The position numbers and the translations under genes were made by a program. Positions 40,991-64,000 of a stretch of 64,000 bases of DNA are shown here, piece after piece. The notes below the pieces were generated by a model, which saw nothing but the letters and a program-made list of their open reading frames with translations, made no database searches and had not been told where the DNA came from. Positions within the stretch are counted from its first letter, which is position 1. Each line of letters opens with the position of its first letter. The DNA lies in assembly GCA_020350825.1 (NCBI GenBank), contig CP070724.1:2076848-2140847 (forward strand), in the 5' to 3' direction. The DNA is from Thermoplasmatales archaeon (GTDB lineage Archaea; Thermoplasmatota; E2; DHVEG-1).

Positions 40991-40993
40991 TTG

Positions 40994-43294: not shown

Positions 43295-43371
43295 GATCGA
43301 TTAGTATTATCTAAAATCAGATTTTTTTGATAAACTTGATAATAAAGAAAGGATTCTTATTTATCGCTGTA

Positions 43372-48016: not shown

Positions 48017-48017
48017 A

Positions 48018-48890
48018 CTATTTATCTCCAAGTTTCAATTTATCTACAGGACTAAGATTCAACTCTAAACCAAGTTTCTCTTTTTTAACACCAAGGGCAA
48101 GACCCAACAGTTGTGTCAGATACATCACTGGTATCTCGAGTTTTACTGCAACAGTCTCCCCGGCTTTCACCTGCTTAGAATCAAACATACGATGACACCA
48201 AGGACACACATCGACAAACACATCAAAACCTTGGTCCTGAACCTTTTGGAGTTTCTGACCAGTTTTTGTCAGTGCAGACTCAGGAAGATTCGCAGATAGC
48301 ATCGCACCACAACAATCAAGCTTCTCTGGATAATCTAATGGCTCAGCGCCCAAGACCTTCAGAATGGTTTCCATTTTCTGTGGGTTCTCAGAATCTACCG
48401 GCCGACCAACCTCACTTGGGCGTATCAAATGACAACCATAATGGGTTGCAACCTTCAACCCAGAAAGTGATTTCTTTACATGTTTCTTTATCTCCTCAAT
48501 ACCAATATGGTCATGTAAAAGGTTAATTGTATGCACAACGTCAATCGACCCCTTATATTGTAAATCCTCAGAAGCAAGCATACTATTTATCCGATCCCGC
48601 ATTTCTGGATTATTTTCCAGAGCACGCTGACATTCACTCAATGAAAGGTGGCACATAGGACATGGTACAAACAAGTCAAGATTCTGCTTCTCAGCAAGAG
48701 CAAGATTTCTAGCAGAAAGATAAAGTGTCATTAGTTGATTCATGCTCTTCATAGGCTCTCCACAACAAGAAAATCCTTCCACATCAACAAGGGCAATATT
48801 AAGTAATGGAAGGGCATCCCGTATAGATATTTCATAGGCATACTGCTCTGTTGGCATTACACAACCGGGATAAAGTGCATACTTTGTCAT
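48018..48890 (-). CDS. hdrB: Heterodisulfide reductase-type subunit B (HdrB)
   Basis: Catalytic disulfide-reducing subunit with two CCG domains that bind noncubane [4Fe-4S] clusters in HdrB. Cysteine motifs: YPGCVM, FSCCGEP, PCPMC in the first half, and HYGCHL, LDCCGAM, VCPWC in the second, so both clusters look intact. ATG 48890 gives the expected N-terminus (MTKYALYPGC) with GGAG 8 nt upstream; a longer frame to 48920 would overlap hdrC. The physiological disulfide is unknown, since no methanogenesis gene is present here. Confidence 0.94.
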   Translation of the reverse strand: MTKYALYPGCVMPTEQYAYEISIRDALPLLNIALVDVEGFSCCGEPMKSMNQLMTLYLSARNLALAEKQNLDLFVPCPMCHLSLSECQRALENNPEMRDRINSMLASEDLQYKGSIDVVHTINLLHDHIGIEEIKKHVKKSLSGLKVATHYGCHLIRPSEVGRPVDSENPQKMETILKVLGAEPLDYPEKLDCCGAMLSANLPESALTKTGQKLQKVQDQGFDVFVDVCPWCHRMFDSKQVKAGETVAVKLEIPVMYLTQLLGLALGVKKEKLGLELNLSPVDKLKLGDK

Positions 48891-48900
48891 TGTTATTCTC

Positions 48901-49428
48901 CTATATCTTTTCAACAGCAAGTTTTGTTATAGCTGTCTGAAACTTTACGGCATCTAATGGTTTAGATACCTTGGGCAATCCAAGATTGTCTCGCTTTTTA
49001 GTTTTATTATCTCGGTTAGAAACACTTTGTACATCCTGAATTAATCCTATAGAAAGGATAGACTGCAACATAGATGTATATTTTCCAGGAATCTGCTTTC
49101 CGCTTGCAACGGCCATATTCTTTAGCGCAAACAAAATCTCCACAGGTGCAACCTTTTGTGGACAGCGCTCCCTGCACTTAAAACAACTCATACATGTCCA
49201 GATGACATCAGAATTTACCATTTCATCAATTAAACCACGTTTAAGAAGAGCGACAATCTTATGGGGTTCCAGCTCTAAAAGCTTATGAGCTTCACAACCA
49301 GAGGTACATTTAGCACATTGAAAACAATAATCTGATATTTCGCTTTTAAGTTTTAAAAGCCGTTCATTAATTTCATTTCTAAGAGTAGATTGTTCTTCAG
49401 CCATTGATGTCAGGTCTACTACACCCAT
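48901..49428 (-). CDS. hdrC: Heterodisulfide reductase-type subunit C (HdrC)
   Basis: Electron-transfer subunit linking HdrA to HdrB. Two [4Fe-4S] motifs: CFQCAKCTSGCEA (about 36-48) and CMSCFKCRERCPQ. The 175-residue protein has a C-terminal extension of basic, low-conservation sequence. It starts the hdrCBA run; TTTAAATA-like sequence in the 107 nt after sucD suggests a promoter of its own. An ATG seven codons in is an alternative start. Confidence 0.92.
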   Translation of the reverse strand: MGVVDLTSMAEEQSTLRNEINERLLKLKSEISDYCFQCAKCTSGCEAHKLLELEPHKIVALLKRGLIDEMVNSDVIWTCMSCFKCRERCPQKVAPVEILFALKNMAVASGKQIPGKYTSMLQSILSIGLIQDVQSVSNRDNKTKKRDNLGLPKVSKPLDAVKFQTAITKLAVEKI

Positions 49429-49535
49429 ATAACGTCCCCGTCAAGCGTTTATCCAATTTTCATATTTAAAGTTATCAATTGATAATATTTTGAGTTTTTT
49501 TGAAATAAAAGAAGATTGAAAAAACTTGCTAGCAT

Positions 49536-50402
49536 TTAGTCATGCTTCTCAACTAGATCTGCGATATCTGTTGGGAATTTAGCTACTTTAACATTTGCTT
49601 TTTCAAAAGCCTTTATTTTTGATGCTGCGGTACCTTTTCCTCTAGCAATTATTGCACCAGCATGTCCCATTCGTTTCCCTGGAGGAGCAGTTCGTCCCGC
49701 TATAAACGCGAAAACAGGTTTATCGATATTCTTAATAATATGTTCAGCGGCCTCCTCCTCAGAAGCCCCTCCGATTTCACCAACTAAAACAACGGCCTTA
49801 GTTTCCTTGTCTTTTTCAAAGGCATCTAAAGCGCCAATAAAAGATGTACCAGTAATAGGATCTCCTCCAAGTCCAACACAAGTACTCTGACCCATTCCTT
49901 TCTCACTTAGCGAATTCACGATTTCATATGTCAACGTTCCAGAGCGACTAGCTACACCAACATTACCCTTTAAAAAAATACCACCCGGCAAAATACCCAC
50001 CTTGCTTTTACCAGGGCTAGCAATACCTGGACTGTTTGGACCCACCAACACCGCACCTTTATATTTTGCGTAATGAACAAACTCCATCGCATCATGAAAT
50101 GGAATATTCTCAGTAATTACAACAACTGTTCTAATTCCAGCGTCAAGCGCTTCGAAAACTGCATCCTTCGCAAAGCGAGCAGGTACCAACACTAAAGTAG
50201 TATTCGCACTAGTTTCATCAACAGCATCCTTGACATCATTAAAAATTGGTACACCATGTACTTCCTGGCCGGCTTTACCAGGAGTCACTCCCGCAACAAC
50301 TTTGGTACCAAAATCTAACATCTCACCAATATGAAACACACCCTGATGACCTGTTGCACCCTGCACAACTACCTTTGTTTTATCATCAACAAATATTGCC
50401 AT
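49536..50402 (-). CDS. sucD: Succinyl-CoA synthetase (ADP-forming) alpha subunit
   Basis: Binds CoA and carries the phosphohistidine of the acyl-CoA + ADP + Pi reaction. The CoA-binding N-terminus has [31 protein letters not shown] and GEIGG are family motifs, and the active-site histidine lies in RMGHAGAII. At 288 residues the size is normal. It starts at the base after the sucC stop, so the pair is translated together. In this context it should regain ATP from succinyl-CoA or related acyl-CoA made by the Kor enzyme. Confidence 0.95.
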
Positions 50403-51509
50403 CTATGCACCTCCTGCTAACTCACTTGATTTCTGAGCTGCATCCTGCAAAGTCGCAGCAGTAATTAGTCCAGCATCCTTCAAAATATCCTTAGCAATAT
50501 CCTCATTACATCCTTTAATTCGTGTGATAACCGGACAATCAATTCCTTCTTTAGTTATAACGGCTTTCACTCCTTTAGCGACTGTATCGCATCTTGTGAT
50601 TCCACCAAATAAATTCAAGAATATCACCTTAGGCTTAGCTTTTTTCATCAACTCAAAGGCCTGCTTTACCTTCTCGGGATCATCAGTGCCGCCAAGATCC
50701 AAAAACACACCCCCATATCCCTTGAAGTGAGTCAATGCGTCAAGCGTAGCCATAGTTAATCCTGCACCATTGGCGATAACACCAATGTTCCCATCTAATT
50801 GAATAAATGCAATACCCTTGTTCTTGGCATCTTTTTCAAGAGGCGTAAGCTCAACAAGTTCAGGTTCAATATCGGGATGACGATACAATGCATCATCATT
50901 AATATTGATCTTAGAATCTAATGCCATTACTTTTCCATCTTTTGAGATAATAAGCGGATTTATCTCAACAAGTTCACAATCATATTCTCTAAATAGTTTG
51001 TATATTTTCGAAATAACCTTTGCTACTCCTTTTCCCTCTTCCTTCTCTAATTTAAGTTTAGATACCACGCTACGTATGTTGAACGATTGAATACCAATCA
51101 AGGGGTTTACCCACTCTTTGAAAATTTTTTCATCAGGAACACTCTCAATATCCATCCCTCCTTCACCACTGATCATAATAAGTGGCATTCTTTTAGAGCG
51201 ATCTAGAGTAATACTCAAATATAACTCTTTCTCGATATCGACTTTTTCTTCAGCAAGAACCTTATGTACTGTATATCCCCTGATATTCATACCCATAATT
51301 TGTGAAAAATTTTCTTTTGCATCTTTCAAATTTTCAACAGATTTTATACCTCCAGCTTTCCCTCTACCACCAATTGGAACCTGTGCCTTTAGAACAAATG
51401 GAAAATTTAAACCAGAAAAATCTTTTTCATTCTTCACCAGTTTGCCTTTTGGAACTGAGATGTCGTGCTTTTCAAACAGCTCCTTCCCCCTATACTCAAA
51501 AAGTTTCAT
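50403..51509 (-). CDS. sucC: Succinyl-CoA synthetase (ADP-forming) beta subunit
   Basis: ATP-grasp subunit that binds nucleotide and acid substrate. Visible are the N-terminal LFEYRGKELFEKHDI, the lysine-rich VLKAQVPIGGRGKAGG loop, VEINPLIIS, the metal-binding ALDSKININDDAL and the C-terminal NLFGGITRCDTVAKGV and TRIKGCNED motifs. At 368 residues it is the normal size. It follows the two-HTH regulator gene by 18 nt, so the regulator, sucC and sucD probably share a transcript. Confidence 0.95.
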   Translation of the reverse strand: MKLFEYRGKELFEKHDISVPKGKLVKNEKDFSGLNFPFVLKAQVPIGGRGKAGGIKSVENLKDAKENFSQIMGMNIRGYTVHKVLAEEKVDIEKELYLSITLDRSKRMPLIMISGEGGMDIESVPDEKIFKEWVNPLIGIQSFNIRSVVSKLKLEKEEGKGVAKVISKIYKLFREYDCELVEINPLIISKDGKVMALDSKININDDALYRHPDIEPELVELTPLEKDAKNKGIAFIQLDGNIGVIANGAGLTMATLDALTHFKGYGGVFLDLGGTDDPEKVKQAFELMKKAKPKVIFLNLFGGITRCDTVAKGVKAVITKEGIDCPVITRIKGCNEDIAKDILKDAGLITAATLQDAAQKSSELAGGA

Positions 51510-51527
51510 GGCAACATGAATACAAAT

Positions 51528-52658
51528 TCACATATTTAAGAGCTTTTTAACCCAAAAATCACAGCCTACTATTTTACTAGCAATAGGAGCAAATTTAAAA
51601 TCTTTGATAAAAACCATTGTGCCTAAACTATATGTTCTAATCCTTGGGTCTTCTGCAATCCATTGATTTTCCTTTAAAATCTGCATAACTTTCATCATGT
51701 CTGATTTATAATCATCATAATCCTTGTATATAGAAATCAAAACTGCTTCAAATCTTCTACTAGCTAAAAAAACCGTTGAATCGCTCATCAACCCAGCAGT
51801 CTCATCGTTTTCCATATTTGGCGGATTACGAGGGTCAAACCTTATATGATAAAATGCTAGTATCTCAAAACCCAATTTTACATAATTAGGTAAAATGATA
51901 CTACTCATCAGGTTACTCTCTTTAAATTTACGTCTTAATCGTGAAATAGTATGTCTTGAAACTCCCAACTCTCTTCCGACATCGCTATCCGATAATTCGG
52001 GATAACCAGTCAATATACAATAAACATTTTTCTCAGTGTCAGAGAAAACCACATCCTCTATACTTCCAAAGTCAACATTTTCAATCCCGCTTTCTGTTTC
52101 TAGGTCTAACTTAAAGCAGTCTTTCAAAAGGGGGGAAAAATCAAAAAACCGGTATATTTTACTAATTTCAAATGGGAACACTACCAAATTGGGATACTCC
52201 TCCTCCAATAGTCCACGTCCACCAAATGTCTGCGTTCTAATATCATTAATTTTTCCAATTGAGGCATAATCCTTAGAAAGACTCAACGAGAATCCTTTAT
52301 CTTGTTCTCCAACAGAAAAAAATATCTCATCAAAGACTTCAATGGCTTTTCCAGTTATTTCAACTCTTTCTTCTAAAGGGATTAACGGACTAAAATTCGT
52401 ATAAATTACAACCAACATCTCACATCCCTTACTCTGAAGTTTTGGAATTATGAGTTTTCTGAGATATTCATTCTCTTTTAATCTATGTCTAATCGATGTG
52501 ACAGTAGAATGCTTCAAATCAAGTTTTTCTGAGAGTTGTTTATCCGTTAGTTCAGGATATTTTACTAAACCGTAGAGCATAAGTTTTTCTTTTTTAGTTA
52601 ATTCAAACTTTTTAATTGTTTCGAGAATAAGTATATTGAATATAAACTTTTTTCTCAT
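51528..52658 (-). CDS. Transcriptional regulator with two Lrp-like helix-turn-helix domains
   Basis: Two similar halves, each starting with a winged-HTH: KFELTKKEKLMLYGLVKYPELTD..LSEKLDLKHSTVTSIRHRL (about 17-65), and DTEKNVYCILTGYPELSDSDVGRELGVSRHTISRLRRKF (about 205-250). Each HTH is followed by an alpha/beta region. Internal duplication lets one chain bind both halves of an operator. It is divergent from the frd-kor-hdr-mvh run and in line with sucCD, so control of these energy genes is the obvious hypothesis. The effector is unknown. Confidence 0.82.
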   Translation of the reverse strand: MRKKFIFNILILETIKKFELTKKEKLMLYGLVKYPELTDKQLSEKLDLKHSTVTSIRHRLKENEYLRKLIIPKLQSKGCEMLVVIYTNFSPLIPLEERVEITGKAIEVFDEIFFSVGEQDKGFSLSLSKDYASIGKINDIRTQTFGGRGLLEEEYPNLVVFPFEISKIYRFFDFSPLLKDCFKLDLETESGIENVDFGSIEDVVFSDTEKNVYCILTGYPELSDSDVGRELGVSRHTISRLRRKFKESNLMSSIILPNYVKLGFEILAFYHIRFDPRNPPNMENDETAGLMSDSTVFLASRRFEAVLISIYKDYDDYKSDMMKVMQILKENQWIAEDPRIRTYSLGTMVFIKDFKFAPIASKIVGCDFWVKKLLNM

Positions 52659-52787: not shown

Positions 52788-52828
52788 TACATAATGAAAC
52801 ACACTTAGATATTGGAGGAGCCATTTTG

Positions 52829-52948
52829 GTGAAAATCCATATAGATAATAACATTCAAAAAAATATTGGAATCAAGAAACGTAGGTTTAATTATTTGGTT
52901 AAATTAATAAAATTTAATTTGGTCGGTTTTGTGGGGATAAAATCATGA
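52829..52948 (+). CDS. Possible short leader ORF coupled to frdB
   Basis: GTG at 52829 is preceded by GGAGGAG (52814-52820), the strongest ribosome site in the region. The frame runs 39 codons (VKIHIDNNIQKNIGIKKRRF...) and its TGA overlaps the frdB ATG as ATGA. Leaders of archaeal genes are often much shorter, so the site needs an explanation. The product is basic and has no known family; it may serve translational coupling or be a false frame. Confidence 0.35.
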   Translation: MKIHIDNNIQKNIGIKKRRFNYLVKLIKFNLVGFVGIKS

Positions 52949-53709
52949 CTAAAAAAGAACAAATTCTTATAGAAAAACCAGATTTAAAAAAAGCAGAGGA
53001 TATAGAGAAAAAAGCTGGAACCGTTGAAGTTTTTATCATGGGGAAGAGCTATAAGGTCCCTGCAGGTCTCACGATAATGAAGGCTTTAGAATACGCTGGT
53101 TATAGATATATTAGAGGTTGTGGTTGTAGGGCAGGTTTTTGCGGTGCGTGTTCTACGATATATAGAAAAGAAGATGAACAAAAACTTGGTTTTGATTTGG
53201 CATGTCAAAAGGTTGTTGAGGATAAAATGTATCTTGTTCAGCTTCCTTTTGTACCCGCAGCAAAGGCAGAATATGATATTGATAAACTTGAGGCGACTGA
53301 AAGTACTATTTTTGATATTTATCCTGAGATCGCTCGATGTGTTTCTTGTAATACATGTACAAAGTCTTGTCCACAAGACATTGAGGTTATGAAGTATATC
53401 CAGAGAGCAGTTAGAGGAGAAATCGCAAAGTGTGCGGAGATATCTTTTGATTGCATTCAGTGTGGTCTATGTGCAATGAGATGTCCTGCTGATATAAAGC
53501 ATTATCATGTGTCGCAGCTTGCTCGAAGATTACGTGGAAAGTATCTTGATATAAAATCAAAAAATTTGGCTAAACGACTAAAAGAAGTTGAAAGCAGAAA
53601 ATTTGATAGTGAAATTGAAAAACTAATTAAAATGGACAATAAAGAGATACTGGAGTTATACAAGAATAGAAAGATCGAGGCAGAAGAGAAAGGTCCTGGG
53701 GGTGATTAA
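52945..53709 (+). CDS. frdB: Fumarate reductase/succinate dehydrogenase-type iron-sulfur subunit
   Basis: Electron-transfer partner of the flavoprotein encoded next. The N-terminal [2Fe-2S] domain has CGCRAGFCGAC (about 53-63) and a later LACQKV cysteine. The C-terminal domain has two ferredoxin-like motifs, CVSCNTCTKSCPQ and CIQCGLCAMRCPA, each with a full CxxCxxCxxxCP set. In classical SdhB the last centre is usually [3Fe-4S]; here two [4Fe-4S] clusters are more likely, as in HdrC or TfrB-like proteins. No HdrB-like CCG domain is fused, and no membrane anchor gene follows. First structural gene of an 11-gene run. Confidence 0.88.
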   Translation: MTKKEQILIEKPDLKKAEDIEKKAGTVEVFIMGKSYKVPAGLTIMKALEYAGYRYIRGCGCRAGFCGACSTIYRKEDEQKLGFDLACQKVVEDKMYLVQLPFVPAAKAEYDIDKLEATESTIFDIYPEIARCVSCNTCTKSCPQDIEVMKYIQRAVRGEIAKCAEISFDCIQCGLCAMRCPADIKHYHVSQLARRLRGKYLDIKSKNLAKRLKEVESRKFDSEIEKLIKMDNKEILELYKNRKIEAEEKGPGGD

Positions 53710-55356
53710 GTGAAAGTTACAGATGGATATCCAGAGTACATGATGAAATCTATAAAGCTGGTAGAGGAAAAACGGGAGAAAAACATGTCTCAACCAGTTA
53801 AACCCATGTCTATGAAGGCTCGAGAGGAAGCTCTAAGTAAACATCATCCGGATTATATGAAAGGGACAAAAAGAAAGCTTAAGGTCGGAAGAGATAAGGG
53901 AATGCTATTGTATAATGGTATTGTAGATCTCCTTGAGGCTAAACCTGTTCTTGATCCTAAGGATGTTGATTTAAGCAAGATTGATTATGATGTAGATTTG
54001 CTTATTATAGGAGGTGGCGGTGCGGGTACTGTTGCTGCTTTATTTGCTTACGAATCTGGTGTTTCTAAAGATAAAATTTTGATAGTCACAAAGCTTCGTC
54101 ACGGGGACGCAAATTCAATGATGGCACAAGGAGGGATTCAGGCTGCTGATAGGCCTGAGGATAACCCTACATTGCATTATCTTGATATTTTTGGCGGAGG
54201 GCATTTCACTAATAAACCTGAGCTTGCAAGAGCACTTGCATTAGATGCTCCAGGTATCATCAGTTGGCATGAGGAACTAGGGATAATGTATGATCGCCAA
54301 GAGGATGGTGAATTTCAGGAGCTATCAGGTGGTGGTACCTGTAGGAATCGTATGCATAGTGCTAAGGATTACACAGGTATGGAACTTATGAGAAATATCA
54401 GAGACAAAGCTAGGAATCTAGAGATACCTACGTTGGAGTTTTGTCCTGTAGCCGAATTGCTCATGGATGATAAAGGACAGGTGGCTGGTGGTATTGCCTT
54501 TAACCTTGAAACATTTGAGTATTATGTTATTCGCGCAAAAGCCACGATTCTAGCTACTGGTGGAAGTGGCCGATTACATCTTGCAAATTATCCAACAACG
54601 AACCATTATGGTGCTACAGGTGATGGTCTCATTATGGCTTATCATGCAGGAGCTAATCTTATTGATTTAGATACCATACAGATACATCCTACAGGAGACG
54701 CTTACCCTGAACCACTGGTTGGAATACTTTCAACAGAGAAAATCAGAGGACTTGGTGCAATACCACTCAACAAAAATGGAGATCCATTTGTTTTTCCATT
54801 AGAACCACGTGATGTTGAATCTGCAATGTTTATTCAAGAATGCAAACAGGGGAGAGGCATAGTAACACCTACTGGAATGCCTGGAATATGGCTTGATTCA
54901 CCCATGATTGACATTATTCATGGCGAGGGAACTATTGAAACAAAGCTTGCAGGTGAAGTCCGGAAATTTAAACGATTTGGTATTGATATGGCAAAGCATC
55001 CTATCCTTGTATATCCAACGCTTCATTATCAAAATGGCGGAGTAGAAATTAATGAAAAAACTGAAACAAAAATCCCAGGTTTATTTGCAGCTGGTGAAAT
55101 CTCAGGTGGAGTTCACGGAAAAAACCGGCTAATGGGAAACTCTCTTCTTGATTTTAACGTTTTTGGCAGACGCTCAGGAATTTACGCTGCAAAATATGTT
55201 AAAAAAGCTAAAATTGGAAAACTTACGCTAAATCACCTTGATAAATATAACAAAATGCTGAAGCAAGCTAGCATAAAACCAGCTAAATCTGCTCCGATAA
55301 TTTTACCTGAATATAGAGGTGAAATGGCAATTTCAAGAGCATTAGATATATTCTGA
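53710..55356 (+). CDS. frdA: Soluble fumarate reductase-type flavoprotein subunit
   Basis: FAD enzyme predicted to interconvert fumarate and succinate. The FAD motif LLIIGGGGAGTVAA is at about 98-110, unusually late because of a roughly 95-residue N-terminal extension that contains two similar pieces (YPEYMMKSIKLVEEKREK and HPDYMKGTKRKLKVGRDK). IHPTGDAYPEP and GGVHGKNRLMGNS (H469, R473) supply expected catalytic residues. At the place where SdhA has the FAD-linking histidine there is Asn135 (ANSMMAQGG), so FAD is probably noncovalent, as in soluble reductases and L-aspartate oxidase. NadB activity is the main alternative; the Fe-S partner and context argue for fumarate. GTG start directly follows the frdB stop. 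Confidence 0.85.
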   Translation: MKVTDGYPEYMMKSIKLVEEKREKNMSQPVKPMSMKAREEALSKHHPDYMKGTKRKLKVGRDKGMLLYNGIVDLLEAKPVLDPKDVDLSKIDYDVDLLIIGGGGAGTVAALFAYESGVSKDKILIVTKLRHGDANSMMAQGGIQAADRPEDNPTLHYLDIFGGGHFTNKPELARALALDAPGIISWHEELGIMYDRQEDGEFQELSGGGTCRNRMHSAKDYTGMELMRNIRDKARNLEIPTLEFCPVAELLMDDKGQVAGGIAFNLETFEYYVIRAKATILATGGSGRLHLANYPTTNHYGATGDGLIMAYHAGANLIDLDTIQIHPTGDAYPEPLVGILSTEKIRGLGAIPLNKNGDPFVFPLEPRDVESAMFIQECKQGRGIVTPTGMPGIWLDSPMIDIIHGEGTIETKLAGEVRKFKRFGIDMAKHPILVYPTLHYQNGGVEINEKTETKIPGLFAAGEISGGVHGKNRLMGNSLLDFNVFGRRSGIYAAKYVKKAKIGKLTLNHLDKYNKMLKQASIKPAKSAPIILPEYRGEMAISRALDIF

Positions 55357-55367
55357 ATGGGGTATTA

Positions 55368-55628
55368 ATGATAGAAGTTAAGGATGACTGGTGCAAAGGT
55401 TGCAACATCTGTATTGATCGATGCCCAGTAGATGCATTGGAAGAATCTGATAATTTAAATCGTAGGGGTGTACGTCCTCCTAAGTTGAAAGAAGAAAACG
55501 AATGCAACTACTGTCGGCTTTGCGAGCTCATCTGTCCAGATCTTGCAATAACTGTTATCCCTGAAGAGGATGATAAAAAACCTGTTAAAAAAACCCTTCT
55601 AACACCTGTAGGAGGAAAATTAAAATGA
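55368..55628 (+). CDS. korD: 2-oxoacid:ferredoxin oxidoreductase delta (ferredoxin) subunit
   Basis: An 86-residue 2[4Fe-4S] ferredoxin-like subunit with CKGCNICIDRCPVDAL and CNYCRLCELICPDLAI. It carries electrons from the TPP-bound intermediate to free ferredoxin. Gene order delta, alpha, beta, gamma is as in archaeal 2-oxoglutarate:ferredoxin oxidoreductases. It overlaps korA by 4 nt (ATGA). Confidence 0.9.
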   Translation: MIEVKDDWCKGCNICIDRCPVDALEESDNLNRRGVRPPKLKEENECNYCRLCELICPDLAITVIPEEDDKKPVKKTLLTPVGGKLK

Positions 55629-56806
55629 AATATAAATATGATCCTAAACGGATAAGAGAAGTTTTAGGTAAAAAAGTACAATTCCTACTGGGAGATATGG
55701 CTTGTGTCTATGGGGGCCTCCTTGCAGGATGTTCGTTTTTTGGAGGATATCCAATAACTCCTGCATCTGAGGTAGCTGAAGGAATGGCACGAAGACTTCC
55801 AAGAGTTGGTGGTACATATATCCAGATGGAAGATGAGATAGGGAGTATGGCTGCAGTAATTGGTGCTGCTTGGGGTGGAGCAAAATCTATGACCGCTACA
55901 TCTGGTCCAGGTTTTTCGTTAATGATGGAAAATTATGGTTTTGCTGCTATGACTGAAACACCCTGCGTAATAGTCAACGTTCAACGAACTGGTCCATCAA
56001 CAGGACAACCAACACTGGGAGCACAGGGTGATATGATGCAGGTACGATGGGGAACCCACGGGGATTTTGAAGCACTTGCCCTTGCACCAAGTACTGTTCA
56101 AGAATGTATGGATTTCACAATAGAGGCATTCAACCTCTCTGAGAAGTATCGAAACCCTGCATGTGTTATGACTGATGGTGAAGTCGGACATCTTAGGGAA
56201 CGTATTATTATACCCGATGAAAAAGACTTAAAGATAATCGATAGAGTCACTGCAACTATAGATAAGGAGAAATACATACCTTTTACAAACTCACAGACAA
56301 GAAAAAGTAAAGTTCCAGATTTTGCTACTTTTGGCACTGGTTATCGAACTTATGTTACAGGTCTCACTCATAACGAAAAAGGTTTTCCAGCAACTGATAA
56401 ACAGCCGGATCATGAACGACTTGTGAAAAGAATTACAACAAAAATCACTGATGATGCTGACAAACTCGTTATGGTTGAACAGCTAAATTTGGATGATGCT
56501 GATGTTGCATTTGTCACATATGGCGCTACTGCACGACCTGCAGAATCTGCAATGGAAATGGGGAGAAAGAATGGTATAAAAGTTGGCTTACTTCGACTTA
56601 AAATTGTTTGGCCGTTTCCTGATAAATTAGTAACAAATCTTGCGAAAGATGTTGATAAAATAATTGTTCCAGAGATGAACCTCGGGCAAATGGTTCATCC
56701 TGTCCGAGAATTTGCTGAAAATCATTGTGAAGTTATTTCTGCACCAAAGATCGGGGGGGAGATGCATCTTCCTATGGAACTTTACAAATATTTGGAGGGA
56801 AAGTAA
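55625..56806 (+). CDS. korA: 2-oxoacid:ferredoxin oxidoreductase alpha subunit (2-oxoglutarate type likely)
   Basis: The alpha subunit helps bind substrate and CoA. Motifs: FGGYPITPASEVAEGMA, QMEDEIGSMAAVIGAAWGG, TATSGPGFSLM, VQRTGPSTGQPT and the late PEMNLGQMV. At 393 residues it is the separate-gamma, four-subunit form. Whether the substrate is 2-oxoglutarate, a branched-chain 2-oxoacid or another cannot be proved from sequence; succinyl-CoA synthetase nearby favours 2-oxoglutarate. Confidence 0.93.
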   Translation: MKYKYDPKRIREVLGKKVQFLLGDMACVYGGLLAGCSFFGGYPITPASEVAEGMARRLPRVGGTYIQMEDEIGSMAAVIGAAWGGAKSMTATSGPGFSLMMENYGFAAMTETPCVIVNVQRTGPSTGQPTLGAQGDMMQVRWGTHGDFEALALAPSTVQECMDFTIEAFNLSEKYRNPACVMTDGEVGHLRERIIIPDEKDLKIIDRVTATIDKEKYIPFTNSQTRKSKVPDFATFGTGYRTYVTGLTHNEKGFPATDKQPDHERLVKRITTKITDDADKLVMVEQLNLDDADVAFVTYGATARPAESAMEMGRKNGIKVGLLRLKIVWPFPDKLVTNLAKDVDKIIVPEMNLGQMVHPVREFAENHCEVISAPKIGGEMHLPMELYKYLEGK

Positions 56807-57688
56807 ATGGTTGAAATTAAAACAGCTGATGAGTTAAATAAAAAATTTCTACGTGAAGGAATGTGGCCTACTATTTTCTGTAACGGCTGTGGTCATGGTG
56901 TTGTTTTAGAATATACATTCTGGGCTTTAGAAGAGCTAGGATTGGATATGGATAAGGTAATATTTGCCTCAGGAATCGGATGTTCTTCTCGGCTTCCAGG
57001 GTATATTAACGCTGATGGATTGCATACTACTCATGGACGGGCAATTGCATTTGCCACGGGGATAAAAGCAGCTAACCCGGATTTTCACGTTATTATTTTC
57101 ACTGGTGATGGTGACTGTGCAGGAATTGGTGGGAACCATTTCATTCATGCAGCTCGACGTAACATTGATATGACTGTGATAATGATAAATAATTTCATCT
57201 ATGGTATGACTGGCGGACAACTTGCTCCAACAGCTCCATTAGGAAGCATTGCTACGACTGCTCCATATGGAAATATAGAACATCCATTTGACATTAGTAA
57301 TCTTGCTTGTGCTCTCGGTGCTAATTATGTTGCACGATGGGGTGTTTCTCATCCATATCAACCAATTAAATCAATAAAAGAAGGTCTAGAAAAGAGAGGG
57401 TTTTCATTGTTAGAATTTCTTGCACCCTGTCCAACAGCATATGGCAGACGTAATAAACTAGGGGATATCAAAAAACATTGGGCGTGGTATGACGACAACA
57501 CTATTCTTATTGAGGATTATGAAAAAATTATGAAATATGGAACCGAAGAGGAAAAAGCACAGGTAAAAGACAAGATACAACTAGGAGTTTTTCAAGATAT
57601 TCAAAAACCTGGATTTTTTGAATCATATGAGAAACTTGTAGATAGATTAAGAGAGAAAGAAACCAAAGCAAAGGAGGGGAAGAAATGA
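56807..57688 (+). CDS. korB: 2-oxoacid:ferredoxin oxidoreductase beta subunit
   Basis: TPP-binding subunit. The N-terminal FCNGCGHGVVLEY motif, GIGCSSRLPGY, HGRAIAFATGIK and the TPP/Mg motif GDGDCAGIGGNHFIHAARRN with NNFIYGMTGGQ are all present. The 293-residue size is normal. It starts immediately after korA and overlaps korC by 4 nt, so the subunits should be made in step. Confidence 0.95.
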   Translation: MVEIKTADELNKKFLREGMWPTIFCNGCGHGVVLEYTFWALEELGLDMDKVIFASGIGCSSRLPGYINADGLHTTHGRAIAFATGIKAANPDFHVIIFTGDGDCAGIGGNHFIHAARRNIDMTVIMINNFIYGMTGGQLAPTAPLGSIATTAPYGNIEHPFDISNLACALGANYVARWGVSHPYQPIKSIKEGLEKRGFSLLEFLAPCPTAYGRRNKLGDIKKHWAWYDDNTILIEDYEKIMKYGTEEEKAQVKDKIQLGVFQDIQKPGFFESYEKLVDRLREKETKAKEGKK

Positions 57689-58227
57689 AAAAAGATATAC
57701 GGGTCTGCGGTTTTGGCGGTCAAGGAGTCATACTCTCGGGTTTTATCATTGGCAAAGCGGCATCTGTTTTTATGGATTATCATGCTGTTCAAAGTCAATC
57801 TTATGGTCCTGAAGCTCGAGGTGGAGCAGCCCGATCAGAGATTATTATCTCCGATGAAAAAATTGGATATCCTCGACCTATTGGCGTTGATTATCTCGTA
57901 GCCATGTCACAGGAATCATTTGATACATATCGTGATGATATTAGAGATGATGCAGTTATAATTGTTGATTCTGATCTTGTTAAAAAGCATGATATTGGGA
58001 GACCGCTTTATAAGGTACAAGCTCAAAAAATCGCTGAGGAACTTGGCAACAAAATTGTAACAAATATTGTTATGGTTGGGGCTTTCACGAGCATTTTCGG
58101 ATTGTTAAAAACTGAGGCTGTGAAAGAATCTGTAATAGATAGCGTTCCAAAGAGATTTACAGAACTTAATATCAAAGCCTTTGAAAGAGGTTTAGAGGCA
58201 GGTAAGAATGCCGTTAAAGAGCTATAA
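57685..58227 (+). CDS. korC: 2-oxoacid:ferredoxin oxidoreductase gamma subunit
   Basis: A 180-residue subunit with the family N-terminus VCGFGGQGVILSG and the motif QSQSYGPEARGGAARSEIIIS, which contacts substrate-bound neighbours in the family. It overlaps the start of the fused hdrA by 20 nt, tying the Kor enzyme to the Hdr genes at the level of translation. Confidence 0.93.
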   Translation: MKKDIRVCGFGGQGVILSGFIIGKAASVFMDYHAVQSQSYGPEARGGAARSEIIISDEKIGYPRPIGVDYLVAMSQESFDTYRDDIRDDAVIIVDSDLVKKHDIGRPLYKVQAQKIAEELGNKIVTNIVMVGAFTSIFGLLKTEAVKESVIDSVPKRFTELNIKAFERGLEAGKNAVKEL

Positions 58228-61200
58228 TAAAAAAATAGATCATGATCTTGGAGTCCCATTGCAGGATGATTATTTTTATGATGATCCAGAAGAAATAATT
58301 GAAAATAAATCAATGCCTGAACTGGAAAGTACAGCTCGATTAGTAACTGAGAGATCGAGACGAGGGGAAAAACGCGTTATCAATGGTGATGTACTCATTG
58401 TAGGAGCGGGGATTTCTGGTATGCAGGCAGCTCTTGATGTCGCTGATAAAGGCTATAAGGTAGTTATTATTGATAAAACATCGACCATCGGTGGGGCGAT
58501 GGTAAAACTTGATAAAACATTCCCCACAAATGATTGCTCTATTTGCACTGCTGCACCTAAAATGGTTGAACTCTCTCGTCATCCCAATATAAAACTCATC
58601 ACCTATGCTGGGATTAACTCACTTGATGGTAAACCAGGTAATTTCAAGGCGAACATATGGCGGAAAAGTAAGTATGTTGATCCCGATAAATGTACCGGTT
58701 GCGATGATTGCGTTGAGGTTTGTCCTGTTGAAGTAGCGAATCCTTTTGATGAAAAACTTTCAATACGTAAGGCAATTTATATCGAATTCCCACAGGCGGT
58801 GCCTATCGTTTACACTATAGATTATGAGAATTGTAATGGCTGTGGCGCATGTGACAGAGTGTGTGAGCCTGAGGCAATATCATTCCTTGAGAAATCAGAA
58901 GAAATTGAGGTAAATGTTGGTAGTGTTATCGTTGCTACTGGTTTCGAGGTATTTGAACCTCTTGAAATGAGGAAAGAATACGGATATGGCAAATATGAGA
59001 ATGTTATAACAGCTATGCAGTTCGAACGAATATTGTCTTCTTTTGGTCCAACAGACGGAAAAGTGCGTCGTCCATCAGATGGTAACAAACCTAAAACTAT
59101 TGGTTGGATTCAGTGTGTCGGCTCACGAAGTGAACAGCTTGGTTTTCCATATTGTTCACGTGTCTGCTGTATGTATGCAACAAAAGAGGCATCTATTGCA
59201 AAAGAAGCCAATCCTGACATTGATATAACTATCTATTATATGGATATTAGAGCATATGGAAAAGATTTCCAGCAGTATTATGATCATGCCAAAGATCTGG
59301 GTGTTAAATACATCAGGGGTAGACCTGCTTCGGTTTATGAAAATACGGATAAAAGTCTTACTATTAGATACAAAGACACACTTACTGGAAAAGTGGAAGA
59401 GAGTACTGTGGACCTATTGGTTTTATCCACTGCTATAATGCCCAATCAGGGTAATAAAAAACTTGGTGAAGTGCTTGGAATAGAAGTCGATGAAAATGGC
59501 TTTTTTAAACAGGACTCACTTTTAACAGACCCGATTCAATCAACAAGGGAGGGTATCTTTCTTGCTGGTTGCATCCAAGGTCCTAAGGATATTCCTGACA
59601 GTGTTTCTATGGCTAGTGGTGCTGCTGCAAAAGCAGTTGCTCCAATCAAAGATAGAGAAAGACTAATTGGTAAGGAGTTTCCGCCCGAGCGAGATGTTTC
59701 TAACGAGAAACCTCGTATTGGAGTTTTTGTTTGTCATTGTGGCAAAAACATCGCTAGTTACCTTGATGTGGAAAAGGTAACAGAAGAGGCAAAGAAACTT
59801 CCAAACGTTGAATATGCTGATCATATGATGTTTGTATGTTCTGAAGACAGCTGTAATAAAATCAAAGAAACTGCTCAAGAGAAAGGATTAAACAGAATAA
59901 TTGTTGCTGCTTGTTCTCCTAGAACACATGGGGGTCTTTTCCAGGATACATTGATGGAAGCAGGTTTGAATAAATATCTTTTTGAAATGGCAAATATCCG
60001 TAATCATTGTTCTTGGGTACATTCTGACGATTGGGATGCTGCAACAAAAAAAGCAGTAGATTTAGTAAGATCTTCTGTAGCAAAAGCCAGGTACCTTGAA
60101 TCACTCAGTGAAGAAGAGTTTTCAATTTATCCAAAATCTTTAATCATCGGTGGCGGAGTATCTGGGATGAAAGCAGCGCTTGCACTTGCAGATATGGGCA
60201 TTAAATCAATCATTTTAGAAAATGAACCTAAGTTAGGTGGCCGACTTAGATATCTTCACTCAATGTTTCCATCTGATACAAAATCGGAAGATATCATCAA
60301 TCCTTTGATTAAAAATGTTACCAAAAATAAGCTAATTACTGTTATGACTGATTCAGAACTTGAAAAACTAGAAGGATACATTGGTAACTATAAAGGAGAA
60401 GTAAAACAGAAGGGAAATAAAAGAGAAATTGAGTTTGGTACAATTATTGTAGCAACAGGATTTAAAGAAATTGATCTTGACGATAAATATCAATATGGGA
60501 AAAATAGAAATATCATGTCTCAAACTGAGCTTGAGACAAAATTGAAAAACAATGATCTTAAAGAGCCGAAAAATATTGTAATCATTAATTGTGCTGGTGC
60601 AATGGATGAAGAACGCCCATATTGTTGTCGGGTTGGTTGCGGAGTATCAATTAAGAACGCTAAGTTAATAGCTCAAAAATATCCAAAATCCAAGATTTAC
60701 CTTCTTTATCGTGATATGAGGGTTTTTGGAAAAGAGGAAGAGGAATACTACGCTGATGTTTTGAAAAACTATCATGTTACTACTATTCGCCATCCAGGAG
60801 ATAGGAAACCAGAGGTAATTCTAGATAAAAAGGATCCAAAAAATGGACCTATAACCATTAAGGTTTATGATGATATTTTAAATGAAGAAATGACCTTACC
60901 TGCAGATCTATTGGTTTTAACTGTTAATACAGAAGGGGGAGCCAAAACTGAAAAACTGAAAAACATGCTGAAGGTTCCGGTGGATGCTGCTGGTTTCTTC
61001 ATTGAAACTCATGCAAAAATCAAGCCTCTTGATTTCTCAACATCTGGAGTTTATATGTGTGGTGCAGCACATTATCCAAAGAATCTGGTTGATTCAATTG
61101 CTCAGGCTGAGGGTGCTGCATCTCGTGCTGCCATTCCTATTGCACAAGAGAAGATGAAAGGTGAAGGTATTATTTCTGAAGTAATCGAAGATAAATGTCG

Positions 61201-61426
61201 AGGTTGTGGAACATGTGAATTGGCCTGTGCTTACTCAGCTATTGATTTGGTCCCTCATTCGAGAGATCCTGGTCGTTTGGTCGCTAAAGTTAATAGAGCT
61301 CTATGTAAAGGCTGCGGCTCGTGCGCAGCTGCATGTCTAAACAGTGCAATTGAGCAGAAAGGATACGATAGTAATCAAATCAATGTAATGATTGCTGCTC
61401 TTCTTGAAAAGGAGGTTACCGCATGA
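58208..61426 (+). CDS. hdrA2: Tandem-fused HdrA (two HdrA-like FAD units in one chain)
   Basis: 1072 residues, about one and a half times the normal HdrA. Unit 1 (about 60-490): FAD motif VGAGISGMQA (66-71), the CSIC cysteine pair (110, 113), two ferredoxin clusters (CTGCDDCVEVC at 162-172 and CNGCGACDRVC at 209-219), and no C-terminal ferredoxin. Unit 2 (about 500-1072): the HdrA N-terminal domain (GVFVCHCGKNIAS, 505-), a second FAD motif IGGGVSGMKA (about 647-656) and a C-terminal 2[4Fe-4S] ferredoxin (CRGCGTCELAC, CKGCGSCAAAC). Unit 2 lacks the cysteine pair and inner ferredoxin, so the two flavins should behave differently. Overlaps korC and hdrC2. Confidence 0.92.
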   Translation: MPLKSYNKKIDHDLGVPLQDDYFYDDPEEIIENKSMPELESTARLVTERSRRGEKRVINGDVLIVGAGISGMQAALDVADKGYKVVIIDKTSTIGGAMVKLDKTFPTNDCSICTAAPKMVELSRHPNIKLITYAGINSLDGKPGNFKANIWRKSKYVDPDKCTGCDDCVEVCPVEVANPFDEKLSIRKAIYIEFPQAVPIVYTIDYENCNGCGACDRVCEPEAISFLEKSEEIEVNVGSVIVATGFEVFEPLEMRKEYGYGKYENVITAMQFERILSSFGPTDGKVRRPSDGNKPKTIGWIQCVGSRSEQLGFPYCSRVCCMYATKEASIAKEANPDIDITIYYMDIRAYGKDFQQYYDHAKDLGVKYIRGRPASVYENTDKSLTIRYKDTLTGKVEESTVDLLVLSTAIMPNQGNKKLGEVLGIEVDENGFFKQDSLLTDPIQSTREGIFLAGCIQGPKDIPDSVSMASGAAAKAVAPIKDRERLIGKEFPPERDVSNEKPRIGVFVCHCGKNIASYLDVEKVTEEAKKLPNVEYADHMMFVCSEDSCNKIKETAQEKGLNRIIVAACSPRTHGGLFQDTLMEAGLNKYLFEMANIRNHCSWVHSDDWDAATKKAVDLVRSSVAKARYLESLSEEEFSIYPKSLIIGGGVSGMKAALALADMGIKSIILENEPKLGGRLRYLHSMFPSDTKSEDIINPLIKNVTKNKLITVMTDSELEKLEGYIGNYKGEVKQKGNKREIEFGTIIVATGFKEIDLDDKYQYGKNRNIMSQTELETKLKNNDLKEPKNIVIINCAGAMDEERPYCCRVGCGVSIKNAKLIAQKYPKSKIYLLYRDMRVFGKEEEEYYADVLKNYHVTTIRHPGDRKPEVILDKKDPKNGPITIKVYDDILNEEMTLPADLLVLTVNTEGGAKTEKLKNMLKVPVDAAGFFIETHAKIKPLDFSTSGVYMCGAAHYPKNLVDSIAQAEGAASRAAIPIAQEKMKGEGIISEVIEDKCRGCGTCELACAYSAIDLVPHSRDPGRLVAKVNRALCKGCGSCAAACLNSAIEQKGYDSNQINVMIAALLEKEVTA

Positions 61427-61848
61427 ACAAGATTTCAGATGAAATTGTTAACGTTAATTCCTTAAAATTTAAGAAGGGAGAGCTAGTGAAAGAGATTGAG
61501 GAATTGTGTGGTGAAAACCTCTTTGGTTGCTATCAATGTGGGACTTGTTCTGCTGGATGCCCCTTTATTGAGGATATGGATCTTTCTCCTGATGAGGTAA
61601 TTAGATATGTAATATTAGATAAAAAAGAAGTACTAAATTCAAAAACAATATGGCTATGTGCTGCTTGCTACACATGTGCTGAACGATGTCCAAGAGATAT
61701 TAACATTACGAAGATCATGGAAGCTTTACGCCAAATTATTTTAAGAAAGAACATTGATCGGACGAATTTAACTAATATATCTAAGGATGAAAAGGAGTCT
61801 ATTCCTCAATTAGCGTTTGTATGTTTATTTAGAAAAAATGTAGGGTAA
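61423..61848 (+). CDS. hdrC: HdrC, second copy
   Basis: A 141-residue two-cluster protein with CYQCGTCSAGCPF (about 36-48) and CAACYTCAERCPR. It is closer to canonical length than the copy at 48901-49428. Its ATG overlaps the stop of the fused hdrA (ATGA), so it should pass electrons between that protein and the HdrB encoded 4 nt downstream. Confidence 0.93.
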   Translation: MNKISDEIVNVNSLKFKKGELVKEIEELCGENLFGCYQCGTCSAGCPFIEDMDLSPDEVIRYVILDKKEVLNSKTIWLCAACYTCAERCPRDINITKIMEALRQIILRKNIDRTNLTNISKDEKESIPQLAFVCLFRKNVG

Positions 61849-61852
61849 TAAA

Positions 61853-62734
61853 ATGAAGCTGCTGTACTATCCCGGATGTACATTAAAAACATCTGCAAAA
61901 AACCTTGAAAAGTCAGCATTTTGCATAGCTGAAACTCTAGGTCACGAAATAGTTGAAATGGAAGATTGGACATGTTGTGGAGTTGCATCCTCTTTAACCG
62001 ATGATGATCTCATGCATCATTTAGCTCCAATGCGAAACCTGATACATGTAGAAGACGTTGGAGAAGACAAAATTGTAACACTTTGTGATATGTGCTGTAA
62101 TACCCTTAAACAAACGAATTTACGAGTTAAAGAAAAACCTGATGATTTAGAAACATTAAACTTGTTTATGGATAGAGAGAATGATTACAAAGGAACAGTG
62201 AAGGTTGTTCACTTTCTTGAGTTTTTAAGAGATGAAGTAGGTTTTGACGTCCTTAAAAAGAAAGTAAAGAATTCATTGAAGGGTATGAAGATTATGCCCT
62301 ACTATGGATGTATGTTGCTTCGCCCTCGAGAGGTTAGTATTGATGACGCAGAGGAACCATTAATAATGAAAGATCTTCTCAATGCGCTTGGTGCTGAAGT
62401 AATTGATAATCCGTTTAAAATTGAATGTTGTGGATCATATCATACTATAGAAGATAAAAACCTAGTTTCTAATAGAGCTTATAGGATTACAAAGTTTGCA
62501 GTTGACAGAGGCAGCGACGCTATAGTGCTTTCTTGCCCGCTTTGTCGATTTAATCTTGATGTTAGGGGGAAGGAAGCAGAAAAAATATACAACAATTATA
62601 AACAAGTTCCTGTTTACTATTACACTCAGCTTATAGCTGTTGCATTAGGTCTGGATCCTAAATATTGCGGGTTCGGTGATCACGCAGTAGATCCAGTCTT
62701 ATTGTTAAAGAAAAAGGGGGTTTTTGAAAAATAA
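61853..62734 (+). CDS. hdrB: HdrB, second copy
   Basis: 293 residues with two CCG domains: YPGCTLK, WTCCGVA, CDMCCN in the first and YYGCMLL, IECCGSY, SCPLCR in the second. The cysteine sets needed for both noncubane clusters appear complete, so it is probably a working disulfide or thiol-linked redox subunit. It differs clearly from the HdrB at 48018-48890, so the two Hdr sets are not a recent duplication. Confidence 0.93.
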   Translation: MKLLYYPGCTLKTSAKNLEKSAFCIAETLGHEIVEMEDWTCCGVASSLTDDDLMHHLAPMRNLIHVEDVGEDKIVTLCDMCCNTLKQTNLRVKEKPDDLETLNLFMDRENDYKGTVKVVHFLEFLRDEVGFDVLKKKVKNSLKGMKIMPYYGCMLLRPREVSIDDAEEPLIMKDLLNALGAEVIDNPFKIECCGSYHTIEDKNLVSNRAYRITKFAVDRGSDAIVLSCPLCRFNLDVRGKEAEKIYNNYKQVPVYYYTQLIAVALGLDPKYCGFGDHAVDPVLLLKKKGVFEK

Positions 62735-62771
62735 GAGAGAATGATTAATATTTGATAAAATTGGTGATTGT

Positions 62772-63785
62772 ATGAGTAAGAAGAAAAAAGAAAATAAGAA
62801 AGACGCTGGAAAAAAGAAAAAACTGCAACTTGCGTTTTATTGGGCTGCAAGTTGCGGTGGATGTGAAATAGCTGTTCTTGACATTGATGAAAAAATCCTA
62901 GATGTAGTTGCGGTGGCTGACATTTTATTTTGGCCAGTTGCATTGGATTTTAAATACAAAGATGTTGAAGCGATGAAAGATAACACTATTGATGTATGTT
63001 TTTTTAATGGTGGTATACGAAACTCGGAACAAGAGCAAATTGCAAAATTATTACGAAAAAAATCAAAGGTAATGGTAGCATTTGGTGCATGTGCAGTTCT
63101 TGGAGGTATCCCTGGGCTTGCTAATGTTACAAATAAGAAAGAAATCTTTGACGTTGTTTATAAGGACAATCCTTCGCTAGATAATCCCAAGAAAATTGTC
63201 CCAAAAACTTCTGTCAAAGTTAAAGAAGGAACCCTTACTCTTCCTGAATTTTATGACTCAGTAAGCAGGCTAGACCATGTAATTGATGTTGATTACTACT
63301 TGCCAGGTTGTCCTCCAGTACCTGATCTAATCATGACTGCAGTTGGTGCAATTGTCGAAGGAAAATTACCACCAAAGGGTAGTGTAATTGGTCCTTTGAA
63401 ATCAGTATGTGACGAATGCAGATTTGAAAAATCCGAGAAAAAAATCAAGGAAATAAAAAGAATTTATGAGCTTGATAAGTTCGAGGAAAAATGTCTTTTA
63501 GAACAAGGTGTAATCTGTATGGGGCCTGCGACCCGGGGAAGCTGTGAGGCTAGATGCCTTGATGCAAATATGCCTTGTACTGGTTGTGGTGGACCTACAC
63601 CTAATGCACTTGACCAAGGTGCAAAGATGATATCTGCACTTGCATCAATTCTTGGAATTGAGGGTGAAGAAAACATGAGTGATGAAGAAGTTGAAAAACT
63701 AATTGAGCAGGTTGTAGACCCAGTTGGTACTTTCTACAAATATGGGTTGCCTTCTGCTCTTATTAATAGGAGGGTAGATAAATGA
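62772..63785 (+). CDS. mvhG: F420-nonreducing [NiFe] hydrogenase small subunit (MvhG/VhuG type)
   Basis: Holds the Fe-S relay that connects the Ni-Fe site to HdrA-bound partners. Cysteine motifs: ASCGGCEI for the proximal cluster, GACAVLGG, PGCPPVPD, then CDECR, CMGPATRGSCEARC and PCTGCGG for the medial and distal clusters. The lysine-rich N-terminus (MSKKKKENKKDAGKKKK) is unusual and has no twin-arginine signal, so the enzyme is cytoplasmic. It follows hdrB by 37 nt and overlaps mvhA by 4 nt. Confidence 0.92.
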   Translation: MSKKKKENKKDAGKKKKLQLAFYWAASCGGCEIAVLDIDEKILDVVAVADILFWPVALDFKYKDVEAMKDNTIDVCFFNGGIRNSEQEQIAKLLRKKSKVMVAFGACAVLGGIPGLANVTNKKEIFDVVYKDNPSLDNPKKIVPKTSVKVKEGTLTLPEFYDSVSRLDHVIDVDYYLPGCPPVPDLIMTAVGAIVEGKLPPKGSVIGPLKSVCDECRFEKSEKKIKEIKRIYELDKFEEKCLLEQGVICMGPATRGSCEARCLDANMPCTGCGGPTPNALDQGAKMISALASILGIEGEENMSDEEVEKLIEQVVDPVGTFYKYGLPSALINRRVDK

Positions 63786-64000
63786 AAACAGTAATGATAG
63801 ATCCCATAACAAGACTCGAGGGCCATGGTAAAATTGCAATATTTCTAAATGACAAAGGAAACGTGGAAAATGCATATATGCAGATTCCCGAACTTCGAGG
63901 TTTCGAACGGTTTAGCCAAGGTAGACGTGCAGAGGATATGCCACAGATTACTTCTCGTATCTGCGGTGTCTGTCCAGTTGCTCATCATTTTGCAGCAACA
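63782..64000 (+). CDS. mvhA: [NiFe] hydrogenase large subunit (MvhA type), cut by the window end
   Basis: The first 73 codons of the catalytic subunit. ATG 63782 overlaps the mvhG stop (ATGA). The N-terminus MKTVMIDPITRLEGHGKIAI and the L1 motif RICGVCPVAHH, which supplies two of the four Ni-Fe cysteines, are visible. The remaining ligands and any mvhD lie beyond the window. Confidence 0.93.
   Translation, partial: MKTVMIDPITRLEGHGKIAIFLNDKGNVENAYMQIPELRGFERFSQGRRAEDMPQITSRICGVCPVAHHFAAT

Follow-up and report, generated by a model that had tools for sequence, protein, structure and literature searches.

Clusters in which genes of heterodisulfide reductase (Hdr), 2-oxoacid:ferredoxin oxidoreductase (Kor), and fumarate reductase occur together were described in gammaproteobacteria, where korABCD and tfrAB are interspersed with flxABCD-hdrABC in the reverse tricarboxylic acid (rTCA) cycle clusters of tubeworm symbionts and Thioflavicoccus mobilis; a complex shuttling electrons directly to both Kor and TfrAB was suggested (Rubin-Blum 2019, PMC6315080). 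For Riftia, there is expression evidence, tfrAB excepted, and a route through a DsrC-like protein was put forward as an alternative (PMC11636981). Here we analyze a 64,000-nucleotide stretch (the window; G000:C1:2076848-2140847) of the genome of a Thermoplasmatales archaeon from sediment (2.32 Mb, estimated completeness 89%), in which subunits of fumarate reductase, Kor, Hdr, and [NiFe]-hydrogenase are encoded side by side by eleven genes of the plus strand, the first being frdB (52945) and the last mvhA (63782). We propose, with a probability of about one half, that these genes encode an HdrABC-MvhADG complex that is soluble, bifurcates electrons, has fumarate reductase at the end of its high-potential arm, and works in the fumarate-reducing direction; the physical complex, the electron path, the bifurcation, and the direction are all read from genome evidence. 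More tentatively, the locus may represent a widespread class of H2- or NAD(P)H-driven soluble bifurcating fumarate reductases of archaea and bacteria, with a dedicated HdrCB-FrdBA arm, that would supply ferredoxin for the rTCA cycle.

Comparison between this locus and the Flx-Hdr/Kor/Tfr clusters revealed that (i) in both, Hdr, Kor, and fumarate reductase genes are interspersed, and genes for ATP-citrate lyase, aconitase, and isocitrate dehydrogenase (IDH) are near, and a gammaproteobacterial locus (L087) has the same FrdA family and a similar order; (ii) the present locus is archaeal, and its [NiFe]-hydrogenase genes come first, with Flx-like genes further down the run; and (iii) its HdrA is of the two-headed type II, and its hdrC-hdrB pair lies beside hdrA and mvh rather than frd. 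A preliminary description of the window held that the combination was not known as a described complex. This stands for the archaeal hydrogenase version, whereas the Flx-Hdr/korABCD/tfrAB complex had already been proposed (PMC6315080). In the open literature (most subscription papers and preprints were outside coverage), we found neither a description of a hydrogenase-linked, archaeal, or general Hdr-Frd bifurcating complex nor biochemistry on any version of an Hdr-Kor-Frd complex. No earlier description appears to exist of the archaeal version with a hydrogenase, of its breadth, or of the Frd-linked HdrB clade (see below).

The gene run and the proposed electron path

The eleven packed genes all lie where the preliminary description placed them, with gaps of -20 to +37 nucleotides (nt), and matches in Pfam and NCBIfam back every name. 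The run opens with frdB (52945..53709; 254 residues, a [2Fe-2S] domain plus two [4Fe-4S] clusters), which directly adjoins frdA (53710..55356; fumarate reductase/succinate dehydrogenase flavoprotein, PF00890). After 11 nt follow the four Kor genes: korD (55368..55628), encoding the 2[4Fe-4S] delta subunit, with 2-oxoglutarate:ferredoxin oxidoreductase delta as its top NCBIfam match; korA (55625..56806; overlap of 4 nt), the 2-oxoacid:acceptor oxidoreductase alpha subunit (NF006412, 556.6 bits against a cut-off of 411); korB (56807..57688; gap of 0 nt), the thiamine pyrophosphate-binding beta subunit, whose top NCBIfam match is of the 2-oxoglutarate type; and korC (57685..58227; overlap of 4 nt), the gamma subunit (PF01558; top NCBIfam match NF006323). 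The last of these overlaps by 20 nt with hdrAA (58208..61426), a type II HdrA with two thioredoxin-reductase-like halves, which in turn overlaps by 4 nt with hdrC (61423..61848; two [4Fe-4S] clusters, PF13183/PF13534, top NCBIfam match HdrC but under its cut-off). After 4 nt comes hdrB (61853..62734), with two CCG domains of the Frd-linked subfamily, and after a further 37 nt mvhG (62772..63785; [NiFe]-hydrogenase small subunit, PF01058, top NCBIfam match VhuG). The large-subunit gene mvhA (63782..64000; overlap of 4 nt) is cut by the window end; the full gene (L001:1782-3242) ends at window-equivalent position 65242, with genes for a HycI protease and MvhD next.

In the proposed complex, MvhAG would split H2 and pass the electrons by way of MvhD to the flavin of HdrA, which would split each pair, giving one electron to ferredoxin and one to HdrC; from HdrC, this second arm would lead through the noncubane clusters of HdrB and through FrdB to the FrdA flavin and fumarate. 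The net reaction would be 2 H2 + fumarate + oxidised ferredoxin (2 e-) -> succinate + reduced ferredoxin. The one two-electron ferredoxin equivalent gained per fumarate reduced would equal the need of Kor per succinyl-CoA. With SucCD activating succinate and Kor driven by reduced ferredoxin, fumarate + CO2 + 2 H2 + ATP would yield 2-oxoglutarate with the electrons exactly balanced, within a reverse TCA cycle with ATP-citrate lyase. For bacteria, the source of low-potential ferredoxin in rTCA organisms has been regarded as unresolved (PMC10052474); if the proposal is true, ferredoxin paid for by fumarate reduction, itself an rTCA step, would answer this question for the carrier lineages and alter the energy balance of anaerobic CO2 fixation.

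Conservation of the Hdr-Frd linkage

Species genomes of GTDB were scanned with FrdA alone, a search blind to Hdr, which yielded 72 named loci; BLASTP comparison with the proteins of the window gave their gene order, and the 56 archaeal and bacterial loci with sufficient upstream flank form the informative set. The same-strand run with FrdA includes FrdB in all 56 loci, HdrA in 49, HdrB in 46, HdrC in 39, MvhD in 31, Kor in 30, and MvhAG in 14. Eight of the 10 loci without HdrB end at a contig end or a scaffold N-gap, as judged by lengths, and the remaining 2 are from Chloroflexi, in one of which Hdr genes lie immediately beyond the run. The taxa covered are Thermoplasmatota, DHVE2, Archaeoglobi (Mnemosynella), Bipolaricaulota, Aerophobetes, Aminicenantes, Planctomycetota, Chitinivibrionales, a gammaproteobacterium, and others. 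The order hdrC-hdrB-frdB-frdA is found in many loci; the group to which the window belongs instead has hdrCB behind hdrAA, still in the same run. Related genomes share the gene order, as the preliminary one-module interpretation implied, and the entire long run is retained in another genus (L119, G005). Because the order is retained in other genera, the arrangement is far more than chance. An apparent operon break in the same-genus genome G001 was rejected, as its breaks coincide exactly with 100-N scaffold joins. Both G001 and the host assembly (G000) are presented as single contigs and contain such 100-N joins, that is to say, they are joined scaffolds in which distant gene order is unreliable.

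The host genome carries a second unit (L104, G000:C1:822700-842699) composed of hdrB, kor-like, Nfn-like, korD, hdrA, frdB, frdA, korA, and korB genes, in which the Nfn-like genes replace the hydrogenase and two extra korB-like genes are present. Judging by this unit and by gene content over the loci, the core is Hdr plus Frd, and Kor and the electron-input module (Mvh, Flx-like, or Nfn) vary. Of the single Kor-Hdr-Frd-H2 module envisaged earlier, the Hdr-Frd core is thus upheld, and Kor as a fixed part is not: because it is an optional neighbour, found in 30 of 56 loci, Kor more likely uses or supplies ferredoxin than forms a constant part of the complex. The pairwise distances of FrdA correlate with those of HdrB (r = 0.74), FrdB (0.86), and KorA (0.94), values not equalled in 500 shuffles; these correlations show co-inheritance of FrdA with the three subunits rather than contact.

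The same genes could also encode co-regulated but separate enzymes, with FrdAB fed by ferredoxin or another carrier, Hdr-Mvh reducing some disulfide, and a shared operon owed to a role in the TCA cycle. That Frd occurs apart from Kor and the hydrogenase in other genomes, that HdrB retains its CCG cysteines, and that contact is not provable from synteny alone are all consistent with such an arrangement. It is nevertheless quite unlikely, given that no part of the locus is as constant between phyla as Hdr plus Frd, that the specialized HdrB clade is distinct from other HdrBs in the same loci, and that TfrB joins the same parts in one chain.

Hdr and hydrogenase subunits

The HdrA flavin-site residues, the HdrB CCG cysteines, the MvhA nickel ligands, and MvhD are like those of the HdrABC-MvhAGD complex of hydrogenotrophic methanogens (PDB 5odc). 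By contrast, the present locus has FrdAB attached and a type II HdrA, its host gave no mcr or ComA match, and its HdrB and HdrC miss the NCBIfam cut-offs of CoB-CoM Hdr (162 against 345 bits and 84.5 against 160 bits, respectively). Equivalents of E356 and K409 (M. wolfeii numbering) are retained in both halves of hdrAA; the N-terminal half has an inserted ferredoxin, and the C-terminal half has an N-terminal cluster and C-terminal ferredoxins. The protein fits type II HdrA as defined by Lyu 2025 (PMC12054007), with two thioredoxin-reductase halves carrying both bifurcation residues, and a GltD-inserted HdrA lies downstream in the run; that survey, which covers methane and alkane archaea, does not mention fumarate. 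The nickel-ligand motifs RICGVCP and DPCFGCATH of MvhA are intact, and MvhG and MvhD match PF01058 and PF02662, respectively.

Alignment to PDB HdrB structures revealed two five-Cys CCG sites in HdrB, of which 9 positions are conserved in 57 of 57 sequences and C9 in 54, with 3 gaps. A tree built from 64 HdrBs groups those linked to Frd, the second copy of the genome among them, in a single clade (SH-aLRT 97); the placement of the long-branched rows L087 and L088 is unsure. This clade is separate from the solved methanogen HdrBs, from the minus-strand HdrB of the window, and from the second HdrB within L046, L063, and L064. On the CoB-CoM HdrB model, the HdrBs of this clade reach 157-196 bits, and those outside it in L046 and L063 reach 308-311 bits. 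The Frd-linked HdrBs score nearly equally on the HdrB and SdhE models; the HdrB of the window misses the SdhE cut-off (143.5 against 500 bits). In SdhABE/methylmenaquinol:fumarate reductase (MfrABE), FrdAB likewise has a CCG-domain HdrB-like partner; here the cut-off for that reductase is not reached, MqnA/D gave no match, and HdrA and HdrC are present. The minus-strand HdrB, which lies outside the Frd-linked clade, belongs to an hdrCBA set directly behind sucCD (window 46049-51509).

FrdA and FrdB

The dicarboxylate and catalytic residues of FrdA (H232, T244, E245, R287, H355, and R390, lettered by E. coli FrdA) are invariant in 61 of 61 sequences, and the FAD-linking His is replaced by Asn in all 61; FAD is predicted to be bound non-covalently. 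FrdA has a conserved N-terminal extension of ~90 residues and no C-terminal domain. Its predicted model, with a mean pLDDT of 77 and a poorly modelled FAD site, served for fold matching only and gave E. coli FrdA (1kf6) as the best match. L-aspartate oxidase was judged unlikely as the identity of FrdA by context and by the loss of one Glu specific to NadB.

The 12 cluster cysteines of FrdB (4 for [2Fe-2S] and 8 for two [4Fe-4S]) are invariant in 67 of 67 homologues, all of which have two full CxxCxxCxxxC sites and no [3Fe-4S] site, the cluster that normally faces the quinone. Genome content was checked one family at a time, and control searches gave matches in known genomes carrying the families. 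The host genome gave no match for the Sdh membrane anchor (Sdh_cyt, PF01127), the menaquinone families MqnA/MqnD, CdhC, or mcrA and ComA; the genome is 89% complete, and other CoM/CoB genes were not searched. The locus resembles Complex II (succinate:quinone and quinol:fumarate reductases) in its dicarboxylate-site residues but has no FAD-linking His, [3Fe-4S] site, or membrane anchor match. Because FrdB lacks [3Fe-4S] and neither Sdh_cyt nor MqnA/D was matched, a quinone route for Frd is unlikely.

The best NCBIfam match of FrdA is TfrA (317 bits, under the cut-off of 718), and TfrB is among the top matches for part of FrdB (37 bits, under the cut-off of 385). Moreover, the NCBIfam TfrB model is covered piecewise by FrdB (17-83), HdrC (120-225), and HdrB (263-465). 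TfrAB of Methanothermobacter is likewise soluble; in contrast to it, the present locus has separate frdB, hdrC, and hdrB chains and includes HdrA and a hydrogenase. Because the known thiol:fumarate reductase carries these parts in one chain, TfrB may, by analogy, serve as a “Rosetta stone” for contact among FrdB, HdrC, and HdrB; among the loci retrieved, there was no natural FrdB-HdrB fusion. The likeness to TfrA and TfrB could also point to a reaction in which HdrCB-FrdBA oxidises a soluble thiol pair other than CoM/CoB, or a DsrC-like protein as in the alternative route proposed for the Riftia symbionts (PMC11636981), and HdrA-Mvh re-reduces the disulfide. Such a reaction is highly unlikely here, since the TfrA and TfrB cut-offs are far from reached, ComA and mcrA gave no match, and the single HdrCB pair in the run would need to serve both ends. 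Replacement of CoM-S-S-CoB by fumarate as the acceptor, raised as a possibility in the preliminary description, is well supported at the genome level by the Hdr-Frd synteny, the HdrB clade, the TfrB chain, and the absence of mcr/ComA matches.

Energetics and direction

With textbook potentials of +33, -414, -500, and -140 mV, the computed free energy per fumarate is -70 kJ under standard conditions (ferredoxin at -500 mV), -24 kJ at 10 Pa H2, and ~0 at 0.1 Pa; heterodisulfide as the acceptor instead gives +9 kJ at 10 Pa. By the same figures, the reverse reaction (succinate + ferredoxin -> 2 H2) would be possible only at very low H2. The reductive direction is favoured by ATP-citrate lyase and by the lost FAD-linking His, a loss known to impair succinate oxidation in E. 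coli Frd. Since the genome has ATP-citrate lyase, Kor is more likely a consumer than a source of reduced ferredoxin, which reverses the role assigned to it in the preliminary description.

The same complex might instead serve peptide or glutamate degradation in reverse, with Kor reducing ferredoxin, FrdAB oxidising succinate, and HdrA confurcating the electrons to 2 H2 (or NADH). The stoichiometry would match equally, Kor, SucCD, Frd, Fum, and PEPCK are grouped together and able to run oxidatively, Gln prevails at position 49 of FrdA, and succinate oxidation would be feasible at or below ~0.1 Pa H2 or with succinate in great excess over fumarate. This direction is possible but unlikely, as the genome has ATP-citrate lyase and not citrate synthase, and the FAD-linking His is lost.

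Several observations weigh against the fumarate-reducing complex: (i) the position of E. coli Glu49 is occupied by Gln in 53 of 61 FrdA sequences and by Glu in 8, and Gln, which favours succinate oxidation in E. coli enzymes, argues weakly for the opposite direction; (ii) HdrB retains both noncubane clusters, which would leave a disulfide substrate possible; (iii) a fold search with the FrdB model turned up no more than weak matches of low TM score, to subunits with a [2Fe-2S] cluster; and (iv) ATP-citrate lyase is present in 13 of 16 genomes with Frd and in 14 of 20 without it in the same family. A strict co-occurrence of Frd and ATP-citrate lyase, which had been considered, is contradicted by the last of these counts.

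Reverse TCA genes and the host lineage

An acn-aclB-aclA-monomeric idh operon lies 22.8 to 30.2 kb past the window end (L111:4773-12223, C1:2163620-2171070) and shares an N-free stretch with the run; a second copy starts at C1:1173123 (L112:5124-11780), its idh cut by an N-gap. ATP-citrate lyase was identified by PF16114 and PF24948, and the only citrate synthase family matches in the genome are the ATP-citrate lyase subunits. One N-free stretch holds both ATP-citrate lyase subunits, aconitase, IDH, Kor, SucCD, Frd, and Fum, and also phosphoenolpyruvate carboxykinase (PEPCK); the enzyme search covered the rTCA set except malate dehydrogenase.

The nearest named relatives of the host are the Thermoplasmatales archaea bin14, bin50, bin105, SG8-52-3, and SM1-50, which were grouped as MBG-D/Thermoprofundales in a 2018 genome study (PMC6461988); the host is a Thermoplasmatota metagenome-assembled genome (MAG) close to this group. 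That study found aclAB and frdAB in none of its MAGs. The Frd locus is present on contigs of SG8-52-3 (L035), SM1-50 (L042), and M9B1D (L044), and ATP-citrate lyase is present in G030 (taken as SG8-52-3) and G027 (taken as M9B1D), which corrects the record for MBG-D archaea. In a related Thermoplasmatota operational taxonomic unit, rTCA genes had already been noted (PMC11287216, 2024).

Remainder of the run and neighbouring genes

Beyond the window, the run extends to a total of 22 genes with a maximum gap of 37 nt and no N. The genes after mvhA are, in order, hycI, mvhD, a GlcD-type FAD oxidase gene (glcD), an hdrC-mvhD fusion, and mvhD, followed by genes for an FrhB-like Fe-S protein, an AsrA-like and an AsrB-like protein, hdrA, the 1294-residue hdrA-GltD, and a nifX-like gene. 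By domain reading, the mvhD/FrhB-like/AsrA-like/AsrB-like set looks like FlxDCBA. The GlcD-type oxidase and the HdrC-MvhD fusion (L001:4193-6636) suggest 2-hydroxyacid input into the same Hdr system, and the 1294-residue HdrA with its inserted GltD-like part (L001:11877-15761) is type III-like. Fumarase and ATP-type PEPCK genes lie downstream of the run.

Divergent from the run on the minus strand are sucC (50403..51509; succinyl-CoA synthetase beta, ATP-grasp_2 and Ligase_CoA), whose position is kept in relatives, and sucD (49536..50402; alpha subunit, CoA_binding and Ligase_CoA). Also on the minus strand, the gene for a double helix-turn-helix/TrmB-like protein (51528..52658) lies beside frdB in almost every near relative with a contig that extends this far; this protein is a likely candidate regulator of the run. 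A sigma-70-type promoter scan, a consensus type uninformative for an archaeal host, gave values near the shuffle mean. Directly upstream of frdB, a candidate leader open reading frame of 40 codons (window 52826-52948) has a GGAGG Shine-Dalgarno sequence, a TTG start, and an ATGA overlap with frdB; the Shine-Dalgarno sequence and the position recur in near relatives, and the peptide itself is poorly conserved. Several large secreted peptidase-like or PKD-type proteins, as read from their sequences, are encoded at window 40991-45858 and would be typical of a protein-degrading lifestyle.

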